Origin: Thermococcus gammatolerans EJ3
GTDB taxonomy: Archaea; Methanobacteriota_B; Thermococci; Thermococcales; Thermococcaceae
Assembly: GCF_000022365.1 (NCBI RefSeq)
Contig: NC_012804.1
Span: 1,798,001 to 1,862,000 of the forward strand
DNA: 64,000 bases
Direction of reading: 5' to 3'
Shown here: piece after piece, positions 3,726 through 18,631 of the stretch
Numbering within the stretch: the first letter of the stretch is position 1
How the letters are laid out: the number at the start of each line of letters is the position of its first letter
Program-made: the position numbers and the translations under genes
The notes under the pieces: generated by a model
The model's database searches: none
What the model was told of the DNA's origin: nothing
What the model saw: only the letters and a program-made list of their open reading frames with translations

Positions 3726-4421
3726 ATGATAGCGCTTGCACTCGGCCTGATTGTTGGCCTTGGGCTCGCGTTCCTGCTTGGAAAAGTGAAGGGCAGAAAA
3801 TCAGAGGTGGCAACGACACTCGCGGTTCCGTTGATGGTATACGAAGTTGCAGAGGGCATTTACGGGGGCTGGAGCGGGAACGTTTTCATTGCAACTCCCC
3901 TTGGAGATTTCACGCCTAAAGAGATAATCGGGCTCGAAACTTTCTTGGCGCTTCTTGTGGTTCTCGTTTGCGTTCACTTCCGTGTGAGAGGGACCTTTGA
4001 GATAGACGGGTTCATAGGATTCTCAACGTTTTTCTGGGCAATGGTTGGATTTGGAATTGGTCTCTCCGCAAGCGGCTGGTCCCTGCTGGCCATTCCGGGA
4101 CTTATTCTATGGGGAATCCTTATGTGGATCTCGCGAAGGAACTCTCTTGTAGGTCTAAGGGCTACGCCCTGTACGGACGGGCTGAGTGAACTGGTCAGTG
4201 AAAGTGACCTCAGATGCCTCACTGACGAGGAAAGCCTGGGAGTTTACAGAATCAACGGCTACCTTCTCGTGGGCGGGAAAATTGGAAACTTTCCCCAGTG
4301 GAGGGAGATTGTTAGGTGCATTGCGATGGCCCCAGAGCAGAGAACTGTCCAAGGGGTGATAATTGGGCTCATCTACCTCCTTCCCGTCCGGCAGGGATTA
4401 TTCTGGGAGACAGTATCGTGA
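3726..4421 (+). CDS. Polytopic membrane protein, possibly a degenerate M56/M48-like peptidase
   Basis: 231-residue protein with hydrophobic segments at roughly residues 2-20, 65-85, 100-118 and 118-135, then a soluble stretch and a last hydrophobic segment near 208-222. The start is the ATG after GGTGGTGGG. The stretch WREIVRCIAMAPEQR followed by a hydrophobic VIIGLIYLLP resembles the layout of M56/M48 membrane metallopeptidases, in which an HExxH helix precedes a membrane helix, but the HExxH zinc motif is absent. This resemblance is my inference and weak. The stop overlaps the start of the next gene as GTGA, so the two are probably translationally coupled. Confidence 0.72.
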   Translation: MIALALGLIVGLGLAFLLGKVKGRKSEVATTLAVPLMVYEVAEGIYGGWSGNVFIATPLGDFTPKEIIGLETFLALLVVLVCVHFRVRGTFEIDGFIGFSTFFWAMVGFGIGLSASGWSLLAIPGLILWGILMWISRRNSLVGLRATPCTDGLSELVSESDLRCLTDEESLGVYRINGYLLVGGKIGNFPQWREIVRCIAMAPEQRTVQGVIIGLIYLLPVRQGLFWETVS

Positions 4422-4591
4422 CAGCACTGGCACTTCTGATTCTGGCGGTGTTAGACTACCTCACCGTGGCGTTTCTGAGCGTTAGGGTGTTTCAAAGGGC
4501 TCTTCCCGAGGACTGCAGGGAGGTGATGGACGAATACAAGAAGTTCATTAAGGAGAGCAAGAAAAGGGAAGGAAAACGGGTTATTGCCTGA
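4418..4591 (+). CDS. Small single-pass membrane protein coupled to upstream gene
   Basis: 57-residue protein starting at a GTG that shares four bases (GTGA) with the stop of the preceding gene, with GGGAGA a short distance upstream. Residues 1-25 form one hydrophobic segment; the remainder is a charged, lysine-rich cytoplasmic-type tail ending KKREGKRVIA. The alternative is that both genes are one protein split by a frameshift, since the membrane helix would continue naturally; the clean GTGA overlap and ribosome site favour two genes. Function unknown. Confidence 0.6.
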   Translation: MTALALLILAVLDYLTVAFLSVRVFQRALPEDCREVMDEYKKFIKESKKREGKRVIA

Positions 4592-4593
4592 TA

Positions 4594-5118
4594 TCACCTC
4601 TCAAGACAGTCCATAGCGTCGAGGTACTCCTTTTTGGCCCTCGCGTGTGTATGATAGAACCAGTCGGAAGCTTTGCAGTAGCTGTAGAGCTCCTCCGGCT
4701 TGAAGTAGAGGTTTATTTCCCTTTCGGCGCTCTCGGGGCTGTCTGAGGCATGGATGACGTTGTATATTGCATCCCCAACGTCGAGGCCGTAGTCCCCCCT
4801 GATGCTCCCGGGTTCGGCGTCCTTTGGGTCCGTCGCTCCGGCCATCTTCCTGACGACGCTTATGGCGTAGCGCCCTTCGACTACCATCACGACGCTCGGG
4901 GCCTTTGTGATGTAGTCTATCAGCGCCTCGAAGAAGGGCTTTCCCCTGTGCTCCTCGTAGTGCTTTTCAGCGAGCTCGCGGTCAATCCATATCATCTTCA
5001 TTCCAACGATTTTAAGGCCCCTCTTCTCAAAACGGCTTATGATTTCGCCCATCAGCCCCCGGACAACGGCGTCAGGCTTCAGGATAACGAGGGTTCTTTC
5101 GACCTTGCTCTCGGCCAT
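4594..5118 (-). CDS. ndk: Nucleoside diphosphate kinase
   Basis: Transfers the gamma phosphate between nucleoside tri- and diphosphates through a phosphohistidine. [15 protein letters not shown] is the family N-terminus and the active histidine is H123 in NVIHASDS. The start ATG has GGTG at a suitable distance; a TTG/GTG extension upstream is rejected. At 174 residues it is longer than bacterial Ndk (about 140), with a C-terminal extension after the catalytic region, which I believe is common in Thermococcales. It follows the L7Ae-S28e-L24e operon on the same strand after about 90 bp. Confidence 0.96.
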
Positions 5119-5206
5119 CGGCAACACCGCTTATAGAATGGGGTACGCGGTTAATAGGTTTTTTGGGTCGTAGCAGAAACGGTTGAAAGGATTAAAAAGA
5201 AAGAAA

Positions 5207-5413
5207 TCACTTCCTCCTCTTGGCCCTCTGGAGTCTGGCCTCCTGGAAGGCCTTGGTCCACTTGAGCTTCCTCGGATTGCGCCCCATGAAGTAGAGCTTC
5301 TCGCACTTGCTGGAGCAGAAGAACAGGACTCTGCCGTCGTTCCTGACGAACATCTTGCCCGTTCCCGGCTCGAACTCCCTTCCGCAGTAGGAGCAGACGT
5401 TCCAGCGGGCCAT
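5207..5413 (-). CDS. rpl24e: 50S ribosomal protein L24e
   Basis: 68-residue ribosomal protein with a zinc site made by C7, C10, C33 and C37 and the basic C-terminus QRAKRRK. It binds 23S rRNA in the large subunit. It starts two bases after the S28e stop, within the L7Ae-S28e-L24e operon that is conserved in archaea. Confidence 0.97.
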
Positions 5414-5415
5414 TT

Positions 5416-5628
5416 TCAGCGCCTCCTCCTGATCTCTCTCGCCTCACGCTCAGTCTCCCTGAGGATGACTATATCGCCAACGCGAACTGGCCCTTTAACG
5501 TTCCTCCTGATGACACGACCCTTGTCGCGTCCCTCGAGTATCCTAACCTTGACCTGAGTAACGCCGCCGGTGACACCGGTCCTTGCAACGATCTCGATGA
5601 CCTCAGCCGGGTATCCTTCGTCGCTCAT
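5416..5628 (-). CDS. rps28e: 30S ribosomal protein S28e
   Basis: 70-residue small-subunit protein with an OB-like fold; [20 protein letters not shown] and the terminal [15 protein letters not shown] are the family signature. It lies between L7Ae and L24e on the same transcript. The gap to L7Ae is about 70 bp and includes TTTAAA-like sequence, so an additional internal promoter is possible. Confidence 0.97.
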
Positions 5629-15972: not shown

Positions 15973-16617
15973 TCAAACCACCTCCAGCACCTTCCTGAGC
16001 TCGTGAAGGGTTCCGATTCTAAAGTCGGGGAAGTGGAAATCTTCGCCGCCTTCCCGCGCTATCCACACGGTTTTCATGCCCACGTTCTTCCCGCCGTACA
16101 CGTCCTGCCAGAGGGAATCCCCCACCATAATTGTCTCTTCGGGACGCACACCAAGATCCTCTAGGGCCCGGAGGAAGATCTTCGGCTCGGGTTTTATGGC
16201 GTTCACGTCGTCCCTCGTGATCACCGTATCAAAGTACCCATCCAGGCCGGTCAGTTCCAGTTTGAGCTTCTGGTAAGCGGGCCCGCTGGTGACTATGCCC
16301 AGCTTTAGGCCCTCCTCTCGCAGCCACCTGAGGACTGGAACGGTGTCCGGATAGACGTGAAGCTTGTGAGGGTACTTCCTCAGCAGATCCTCGTACCTCA
16401 GATCAAGGTCAAAGAGCCGGAAGAAGAAGTTCCAGTCGTGCCACTCGTAGGTTTCCCTCCTTCCGAGGATCTCGTTAAGGAATTTCTTTCTCGCCTCCTC
16501 CTTGTTTATCCCCAGTTTTTTTGAGATCTTCTCGTACACCTGCGGAAGGAAGAGCTGGATGAGGGGCATCTCCGTGAGCAAAGTGTGATCTATGTCAAAG
16601 AGCACCGCCTTTATCAT
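15973..16617 (-). CDS. HAD-superfamily hydrolase (phosphatase)
   Basis: 214 residues. Motif I is DIDHTLL with the nucleophilic aspartate near residue 8, motif II is the threonine/serine in VTSG, motif III the lysine in KPEPKIF, motif IV GDSLWQDV. The second aspartate of motif I (DxD) is present, fitting a phosphatase such as the TIGR02253-type archaeal proteins. The start ATG has GGGGTG at a suitable distance. Its first codons overlap the end of the FtsZ-like gene by 23 bases. Probable substrates are small phosphorylated metabolites; context with HPS-PHI suggests a sugar phosphate, as inference. Confidence 0.9.
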   Translation of the reverse strand: MIKAVLFDIDHTLLTEMPLIQLFLPQVYEKISKKLGINKEEARKKFLNEILGRRETYEWHDWNFFFRLFDLDLRYEDLLRKYPHKLHVYPDTVPVLRWLREEGLKLGIVTSGPAYQKLKLELTGLDGYFDTVITRDDVNAIKPEPKIFLRALEDLGVRPEETIMVGDSLWQDVYGGKNVGMKTVWIAREGGEDFHFPDFRIGTLHELRKVLEVV

Positions 16618-17371
16618 TGCCTTCACCCCACTCCTTAACGAGAAGTGCTATTACCTCCATCCTGTTTTTAATGTCTTTGTCCGTCACCATCCCCCAGATG
16701 ATGTCCTTCTTCCTCAGTATCCCCTGGAACATCTCGAGGATTTGATGGGCTTCCCTCAGAGCAACGTCGTCTCGGGCGAGGGTCATGATGATCCCCCTGT
16801 CCCAGATCCCCCAGTGCCAGCTGAGATCCACGCTCCGCAGGAGCCTTATTATTCCAACGTTGCCCCCCCTGACCACCGAGAAAAAGTCCGCGTAGTCGAC
16901 GTTTATGAGCATCTGCCCCTCCAGGTTCCGGATGAGTGAGCTGAGGGCCCGGGCTATTGATCCCGATGCTTCCTTGTAGGCCTCGCTCAGAGGTTTCCTC
17001 TCGTCAAAGAACTCCCAGAGGGAATCGTAAAAGACTGTGTCAAAAAGCCCCGCCCATTGCGGTTTCTTTTCCTTAACGAGTTCCCTCGCGGGCGTGAAAA
17101 CGTAGGCCAGCCGCGTGGCACCCTCAGGAATGCTATCGATGATCAACCTGAGTATCTCCACGTTGATTGGTTTGTCCTCCGTGAGGATCCAGACTATCGA
17201 GTCCTCGGGAACGGTCGAGAAGAAGAGGGGAACCCTTCTCATGTACTCCTCGGTTCTCAGAAGGTATCTACCGGGGTTTATGTTCACCTTAATGGAATCC
17301 ACAGTTATTTCATTAACCACCTTCGAACCGGCCCCACCTATTCCAACAAAAACGTGTGTAAAGCCTATCAC
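16595..17371 (-). CDS. Degenerate FtsZ/tubulin-family protein
   Basis: 258 residues. The N-terminus HVFVGIGGAGSKVVNEI (residues 6-22) matches the FtsZ T1 loop region. PLSEAYKEASGSIARALSSL followed by GQMLINVDYADFFSVVRGGN matches the FtsZ segment leading into the T7 loop, with the catalytic-type motif NVDYAD at 157-162. KKDIIWGMVTDKDIKNRMEV near 221-240 matches the C-terminal domain. The GGGTGTG T4 loop, essential for holding GTP phosphates, is missing; residues 58-70 read SIVWILTEDKPIN instead, and the protein is about 100 residues shorter than FtsZ. The GTG start is uncertain since GGAGG lies unusually close. It starts 40 bp after hps-phi and overlaps the HAD gene. Confidence 0.8.
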   Translation of the reverse strand: MIGFTHVFVGIGGAGSKVVNEITVDSIKVNINPGRYLLRTEEYMRRVPLFFSTVPEDSIVWILTEDKPINVEILRLIIDSIPEGATRLAYVFTPARELVKEKKPQWAGLFDTVFYDSLWEFFDERKPLSEAYKEASGSIARALSSLIRNLEGQMLINVDYADFFSVVRGGNVGIIRLLRSVDLSWHWGIWDRGIIMTLARDDVALREAHQILEMFQGILRKKDIIWGMVTDKDIKNRMEVIALLVKEWGEGNDKGGAL

Positions 17372-17410
17372 CGCTCCTCCCAATATGGAGAGGGAAAAGG
17401 AGTTAATAAA

Positions 17411-18631
17411 TCATTCGAGGGTCGCGTGCTTTCTCTTCATGTCCTTCTCGGTCTTCTGGAACGTTGCCATCAGGAGGGCTATTATTCCGTCGAGGAATAT
17501 CATGGTTGAGTCCTCGAAGAGGGTTCCCATCGGTGCGATCCACTTGTATTGGGTGAGCATCTGCCTCGCTATGTAATCAGTTGGAACGTCCGTCTTCGCC
17601 CTTCCGGGGATCTCAACGACGACATCGGCCAGTTTTCCGAGAGTTGAGTTGGCATAGGATGTTATCGCCGCTATCTTGCCCCCCTGCTCCTTGGCTATCC
17701 TGGCGGCATCTACTATGCTCTGGGTCTCACCGGAGCCGCTGATGGCTATGAGCAGATCCCCCGGCTCGAAGGCTGGTGTTATCGTCTCGCCGACGACGTA
17801 GACGTTGAAGTCAAGGTGCATGAGCCTCATCGCGAAGGCCTTGCCGACCAGACCGCTCCTTCCCGCGCCGTAGATGAATATCTTGTTGGCCCCTATCATT
17901 GCATCGACGAAACCGCGAACCTGCTCGAGCTTTAGGCTCTCCGCCACACCCTTGATGTGATCGAGTATGTCGAGCATGGCTTTCTTTATTGTCATCATGT
18001 ATTCTCCCCAGAAGAGGTCTATGATCTGCCTCGTGACTTTCTCCGGATCCTTGGCCTTCGTTATGGCGCTGCCAACTATTATTATGGTTGCACCAAGTTC
18101 TATGACCTTGGGAATAGTCTCAAGGTTCAGCCCTCCGGCAACGGCCACGGGGACGTTCACGGCCTTAACGACCTTTTCGAGATCCTCAAGCGGGCTCTTG
18201 CCCTGCATCTGCTCGTCTATGCCGGTGTGTACGAGTATGTAGTGTACACCCATCTTCTCGAGTTCTTTGGCTCTCTTAACCTTATCCTTAACCCCTATCA
18301 GGTCAACCATGACCCTGATTCCATAGCGTCTTGCGACGTCAACCGCGTCCTTGATTGTTTTGTCGTCGGCCACACCGAGAATAGAAACAACGTCGGCACC
18401 GTGCCTCGCGGCCATTTCGACCTCCAGAGCGCCGGTGTCCATAGTCTTCAAGTCGGCGACGATCTTCCTGTCCGGGAAGCGTCTCTTGAGAAGTTCAACA
18501 GCCCTCATTCCTTCCTTCTTGATGAGTGGTGTTCCAACCTCAAGCCAGTGCGCACCGCCGCGGGCGGCCTTCTCCGCGATAGAAAGAGCCTGATCTATAT
18601 CTGTAACGTCGAGTGCCACCTGGAGTATCAT
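17411..18631 (-). CDS. hps-phi: Fused 3-hexulose-6-phosphate synthase / 6-phospho-3-hexuloisomerase
   Basis: Bifunctional ribulose monophosphate pathway enzyme of 406 residues. Residues 1-208 are the HPS barrel of the orotidine-decarboxylase superfamily (VADLKTMDTGALEVEMAARHGAD, GGLNLETIPKVIELGATIIIVGSAI). Residues 215-406 are the SIS-domain PHI isomerase (GAGRSGLVGKAFAMRLMHL, ISGSGETQS). Thermococcales use it in reverse to make ribulose 5-phosphate from fructose 6-phosphate, replacing the pentose phosphate pathway. First gene of a five-gene operon that continues with the FtsZ-like protein. Confidence 0.97.
   Translation of the reverse strand: MILQVALDVTDIDQALSIAEKAARGGAHWLEVGTPLIKKEGMRAVELLKRRFPDRKIVADLKTMDTGALEVEMAARHGADVVSILGVADDKTIKDAVDVARRYGIRVMVDLIGVKDKVKRAKELEKMGVHYILVHTGIDEQMQGKSPLEDLEKVVKAVNVPVAVAGGLNLETIPKVIELGATIIIVGSAITKAKDPEKVTRQIIDLFWGEYMMTIKKAMLDILDHIKGVAESLKLEQVRGFVDAMIGANKIFIYGAGRSGLVGKAFAMRLMHLDFNVYVVGETITPAFEPGDLLIAISGSGETQSIVDAARIAKEQGGKIAAITSYANSTLGKLADVVVEIPGRAKTDVPTDYIARQMLTQYKWIAPMGTLFEDSTMIFLDGIIALLMATFQKTEKDMKRKHATLE

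Follow-up and report, generated by a model that had tools for sequence, protein, structure and literature searches.

A lineage-wide FtsZ-like protein of Thermococcaceae, predicted to be a pseudo-GTPase, with an invariant T7 motif

The described proteins closest to the FtsZ-like family reported here are archaeal FtsZ2 and, next by profile score, FtsZ1 (TIGR00065; PF00091 and PF12327). The order S1-T1-H1, S4, S5, S6, H7, T7, H8 and S7-S10 is common to these proteins and to the family, as are the NxDxxD motif of T7 and the archaeal S9 signature IIWG. In contrast to FtsZ2 and FtsZ1, which comprise 380-417 aa, the Thermococcus gammatolerans protein has 258 aa, and the family lacks the T2-H2-S3-T3 segment, T4, helix H9, the linker and the GID tail. 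CetZ (arCOG02202), encoded in the same genome, likewise belongs to the tubulin superfamily; it keeps a GGGTGAG loop, whereas the FtsZ-like family has no such loop. Gamma-tubulin, a member of the same superfamily, works in a ring complex and serves as a minus-end cap or nucleator; the minus-end role proposed below is similar by analogy only, gamma-tubulin being a GTP-binding protein. FtsZl1 and FtsZl2 (Makarova and Koonin 2010) are further divergent families of FtsZ-like proteins occurring alongside FtsZ itself; both keep GGGTG(S/T)G, and FtsZl1 is devoid of recognisable T6-H7 and C-terminal parts (PMC2875224). The anatomy of the present family is the reverse, with the GTP loop lost and the T7 and C-terminal parts kept, and the intact GGGTG(S/T)G that defines FtsZl1 and FtsZl2 is absent from its 62 members. 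A survey of CetZ records for Thermococcales only FtsZ1, FtsZ2, CetZ and one divergent protein in two strains, Thermococcus AM4 and T. gammatolerans (PMC9856176). This extra tubulin-superfamily protein is comparable in its divergence and its host lineage, but it was described from two strains, whereas the FtsZ-like family is lineage-wide.

The window, i.e. the whole analysed stretch of 64,000 nucleotides from T. gammatolerans EJ3 (NC_012804.1, positions 1,798,001 to 1,862,000), contains the following features.

17411..18631, minus strand: fused 3-hexulose-6-phosphate synthase / 6-phospho-3-hexuloisomerase (HxlAB), upstream of the FtsZ-like gene; NF041755, E=2.1e-166
17374..17380, minus strand: ribosome-binding sequence GGAGGAG, 5' of the FtsZ-like gene, read from the sequence
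16595..17371, minus strand: coding sequence of the FtsZ-like protein, 258 aa; GTG start at 17371, stop at 16595
17327..17344, minus strand: T1-equivalent GIGGAG, residues 10-15; G10 and G12 in 62/62, G15 in 61/62
17162..17200, minus strand: strand S4 and the position of the missing T4, SIVWILTEDKPIN, residues 58-70; W61 and N70 in 62/62; GGGTGTG deleted (hhalign gap)
17078..17092, minus strand: T5-equivalent PAREL, residues 94-98; P94, E97 and L98 in 62/62
17015..17044, minus strand: S6-T6-equivalent FDTVFYDSLW, residues 110-119; F110, T112, F114, Y115, D116 and S117 in 62/62; T6 Asn of FtsZ replaced
16916..16990, minus strand: central helix H7, about residues 128-152, placed from the models; base-contact Asp replaced by S/A/T/G
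16880..16915, minus strand: T7 loop QMLINVDYADFF, residues 153-164; N157, D159, A161 and D162 in 62/62
16793..16819, minus strand: family-specific aromatic loop WHWGIWDRG, residues 185-193, replacing FtsZ helix H9
16691..16708, minus strand: S9-equivalent KDIIWG, residues 222-227, matching xxIIWGAxxDE of FtsZ
15973..16617, minus strand: HAD-family phosphatase, downstream, overlapping the stop of the FtsZ-like gene; TIGR02253 over its cutoff, PDB 4YGQ with E=5e-102

The reading frame reported in the initial annotation is thus present at 16595-17371 on the minus strand, and all motifs quoted there occur in its translation: GIGGAGSK at residues 10-17, SIVWILTEDKP at 58-68, GQMLINVDYADFF at 152-164 and KKDIIWGMVTDKD at 221-233. 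The GTG start was placed by means of the N-termini of orthologues, which have Met at the same site, and of the upstream GGAGGAG.

The membership in the FtsZ superfamily proposed in that annotation is borne out by TIGR00065, by hhalign with its negative controls and by Foldseek. As a single sequence, the protein matches the NCBIfam ftsZ model TIGR00065 with E=1.9e-8, a match below the curated cutoff of the model, and M. jannaschii FtsZ with E=1.2e-5 among all PDB chains; the latter match strengthens to E=1.7e-7 with a 32-member family profile. The organism's own FtsZ2 is found by translated search (7.3e-5). Upon hhalign comparison of 62 distinct family members with FtsZ1, FtsZ2 and CetZ profiles built from the same organism and its relatives, E-values of 9.5e-11 for FtsZ2 and 6.8e-9 for FtsZ1 are obtained; no significant profile match to CetZ is observed (E=0.55), and the CetZ profile itself matches FtsZ2 at 2e-25. 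The controls, i.e. the HAD, HxlA, HxlB and glutamate-cyclase-like neighbours and reversed FtsZ1, FtsZ2 and CetZ, all remain at E 0.35-0.86. A chance resemblance to FtsZ is ruled out by these E-values together with the unrelated and reversed controls. With Pfam, the single sequence reaches FtsZ_C alone (E=0.13), which says little by itself, while FtsZ_C matches 22 of 32 family members (best E 4.7e-4); in the same 32 members neither PF00091, the tubulin GTPase domain (at E<=1), nor CetZ_C gives a match.

AlphaFold2 was run on the T. gammatolerans protein and on a relative, with the same 11-sequence alignment for both; the two models show pLDDT values of 72.5 and 75.6 and pTM values of 0.78 and 0.79, the C-terminal parts being of moderate confidence. 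Among the Foldseek matches listed against the PDB with E<=0.001, FtsZ is found throughout for both models, with best E-values of 5.6e-6 and 1.4e-8 and TM of 0.5-0.67. Overall identity to FtsZ is low, about 20%. Collectively, the sequence and model comparisons identify the protein as a divergent FtsZ-superfamily member with a predicted FtsZ fold; the profile search, which had been named as a possible source of refutation, places it inside and not outside the tubulin/FtsZ superfamily.

The losses relative to FtsZ are readily apparent from the hhalign alignment to FtsZ1, in which T1 aligns without gaps. A 9-column gap is located at T4 (GLGGGTGTG), exactly between S4 (SIVWILT) and helix H4, in agreement with the absence of GGGTGTG noted in the initial annotation; the 28-column gap over T2-H2-S3-T3, which removes the cation-contact region of T2/H2 and the gamma-phosphate loop T3, is a loss that the annotation did not mention. 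The contact positions used for comparison were taken from the literature (PMC10020519) and from the general anatomy of FtsZ. The family T6 is shortened and has lost the Asn of FtsZ, its position reading YDS; the T1/H1 Asn position is mostly R or K (54/62), the guanine-contacting Asp of H7 is replaced by S, A, T or G, and the T5 Arg position is also replaced. Furthermore, helix H9 of FtsZ gives way to an invariant aromatic loop, WxWGxW. The C-terminal linker and the GID tail are absent from the 62 distinct members, GID being the SepF-binding motif of the FtsZ tail (PMC8178401); the last Trp is the C-terminus in 38 of the 62, and the remaining chains end at most 12 residues further on. The best reading of the sequence is a pseudo-GTPase, which would no longer bind or hydrolyse GTP in the FtsZ manner.

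The T7 motif NxDxAD, by contrast with these losses, is invariant and has exactly the FtsZ spacing in 62/62 distinct orthologues, so that its retention, as first proposed, is confirmed by identity at N157, D159, A161 and D162. Of these residues, N157, D159 and D162 are the equivalents of N208, D210 and D213 of S. aureus FtsZ, which serve catalysis or assembly at the GTP held by the neighbouring subunit and are required for assembly (PMC8936486). Against a family mean of 0.716, S6-T6 is the most conserved segment (0.939) and T7 the second (0.908). The former pocket is also lined by invariant residues: G10, G12, W61, N70, P94, E97, L98, Y115, D116, S117 and A131 (H7). Since both faces are similarly conserved, selection on both faces is indicated, and the former nucleotide pocket appears from its sequence to be rebuilt and conserved rather than decayed. 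Consequently, a lack of nucleotide binding is not equivalent to a lack of ligand binding. The loss of the FtsZ-type GTP loops stands as originally described, while the picture of the pocket does not hold in full, the T1 and T5/T6 positions and new residues at the T4 position being invariant. Identity to FtsZ over T7-H8 amounts to 6 of 18 consensus positions, with similar fractions in other segments, and a segment-by-segment comparison gives no clear excess of identity at the T7 face.

An orthologue is encoded in 79 of 81 Thermococcaceae genomes, covering all six sampled genera and every well-assembled genome examined, which bears out the expected conservation across the family; both absences concern drafts. 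A true absence is unlikely for these two and for three further drafts from a larger draw (G071, G080, G102, G110 and G111): a complete hxlAB is lacking there too, or the gene is truncated where a contig ends, and assembly gaps are the most likely explanation. No orthologue occurs in 21 genomes from other families of the phylum, where true FtsZ only is found, and when the genomes of about 85,000 prokaryote species were scanned with a pattern that detects close relatives only, matches were confined to Thermococcales or Thermococci records. Between near relatives dN/dS is 0.08-0.13, which shows strong purifying selection, and a pseudogene reading is thereby ruled out. In a tree of the C-terminal half, the family forms one clade (100/100) on a branch of length 9; this branch is saturated, and the place of the family within the FtsZ tree therefore cannot be fixed.

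Some genomes depart from this pattern. One assembly, listed as slightly contaminated (G070), has an intact copy and a second one on another contig, split in two frames (G070:C2:360947-361698, within L065, G070:C2:357000-365700) and apparently frameshifted. In another genome (G079) two complete copies occur, each on a contig of its own (L066 and L067). Third FtsZ-like reading frames, distinct from the Thermococcaceae family, are present in another family of the same class (G099:C5:62016-62945 and G095:C37:290-442; open frames of 329 and 282 aa).

The gene order hxlAB, ftsZ-like, HAD phosphatase, with all genes codirectional, is preserved in 35/35 loci. In 33 of them 2-53 bp separate the FtsZ-like gene from hxlAB, in one 187 bp, and in the last the two frames appear joined; the gap to the HAD phosphatase ranges from -29 to +8 bp. 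The joined case (G011, L050:4086-6065, minus strand) reads as a single 660-aa frame, and a genuine fusion is improbable: there is one extra homopolymer A compared with two relatives, probably a sequencing error. The HAD phosphatase is an orthologue of a solved structure deposited as 'Hydrolase' (PDB 4YGQ/4YGR/4YGS), and its substrate might point to the ligand of the operon. Canonical FtsZ1, FtsZ2 and CetZ are encoded elsewhere in the T. gammatolerans genome and are potential partners of the FtsZ-like protein. The CetZ gene lies near a gene for a protein with a class III signal peptide-like (pilin-like) start (L072:1184-2179 and 4391-5488, both on the minus strand), which accords with a reported association of CetZ with pili in Thermococcales.

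The T7 loop of FtsZ has no use within the subunit that carries it; from its invariance in a protein without the GTP loops we infer an action on the GTP of another protein, FtsZ2 or FtsZ1. The reading that we tentatively put forward from the sequence is that the protein may use its T7 face to dock, as a cap or nucleator, at the minus end of FtsZ2 and/or FtsZ1, where the nucleotide face lies. The nucleotide (N-terminal) face of FtsZ is the minus end and the C-terminal/T7 face the growing plus end (PMC11938149; polarity also in PMC8936486). A subunit having a T7 face and no nucleotide face could occupy only one filament end, the minus end, where the aspartates of its T7 could set off hydrolysis of the GTP in the last subunit. 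Proteins that bind FtsZ by its nucleotide face are expected to favour nucleation or stabilisation (PMC11938149), so that such a subunit would be predicted to nucleate or stabilise minus ends rather than to inhibit in the style of MciZ or SulA. MciZ, SulA and MinC also engage one polymerisation face of FtsZ, but it is the C-terminal/T7 face at the plus end (PMC11938149), whereas the FtsZ-like protein would take the opposite one. As a weaker suggestion, expression together with HxlAB and a phosphatase of the sugar-phosphate type may let its activity track pentose-phosphate or nucleotide supply. Several observations weigh against docking: T7 could persist for folding or for a self-association unrelated to FtsZ, no clear excess of FtsZ mimicry is seen at the docking face, conservation on the nucleotide side equals that on the T7 side, which would be unnecessary for a purely one-sided cap, and the neighbours in the operon belong to metabolism rather than to the divisome. 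Because of the selection on both faces, the cap envisaged in the initial annotation is not fully adopted as a protein that binds nothing itself.

The same conservation invites other explanations. The FtsZ fold may have taken on a new task as a ligand sensor, with another small molecule, e.g. a sugar phosphate or nucleotide from the HxlAB/HAD pathway, bound in the shortened pocket (T1 GxGxxG, N70, E97, Y115-D116-S117) and with the protein regulating those enzymes or coupling them to division. The residues of the former nucleotide site are invariant, with no drift, and the operon with HxlAB and HAD is fixed in all 35 loci; pocket invariance can, however, be structural, operon conservation in one family may be inherited synteny, and a sensor has no need for an invariant T7 catalytic triad. 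We regard this explanation as a serious rival, though less likely than docking. It is improbable that the protein has lost all connection with filaments and now acts as a structural partner for HxlAB or the HAD phosphatase: tightly coupled genes such as those of this operon often encode complexes, but the T7 NxDxAD is invariant at exact FtsZ spacing, and in other organisms HxlAB as well as HAD phosphatases function without an FtsZ-like protein. Neither explanation is exclusive of FtsZ binding. A combination in which a non-GTPase minus-end FtsZ subunit with intact T7, a prokaryotic counterpart of gamma-tubulin, senses in its pocket a pentose-pathway metabolite which the enzymes of its own operon produce or consume, and thereby couples nucleotide-precursor supply to division, is conceivable and decidedly improbable.

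With the T3 and T4 phosphate loops deleted and other residues in place of the Asn of T1/H1 and of T6, the Arg of T5 and the Asp of H7, it is highly unlikely that the protein retains GTP or GDP binding at an altered site and builds filaments of its own, even though the T1 glycines and the T5 glutamate are retained. The chance that the gene is an artefact, a pseudogene or a fortuitous resemblance is negligible; the low overall identity, and nothing else, speaks for it, and it is refuted by the presence in 79/81 genomes, a dN/dS of about 0.1, a frame undisrupted in most genomes, and the E-values with their negative controls. Docking at the minus end of true FtsZ is retained as the tentative reading.

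No published description of the family was found in the literature searched, which gave nothing relevant under the locus tags TK0474-0476, PF0220/0221, PH1938 and TON_0338 or for a link between FtsZ and hexulose-6-phosphate. The family has seemingly been overlooked because surveys were seeded with a GTPase model that misses it; one large survey gathered homologues by PF00091 (PMC9871819). Some archaeal FtsZ paralogues that lack motifs are already mentioned in a 2010 paper citing an earlier review (PMC2875224), so that single proteins of the family may have come to attention earlier. The protein represents a fourth tubulin-superfamily protein common to Thermococcaceae. Known regulators of archaeal FtsZ are few, and a one-sided subunit in the genetically tractable Thermococcus would make it testable how archaeal FtsZ filaments start and end.
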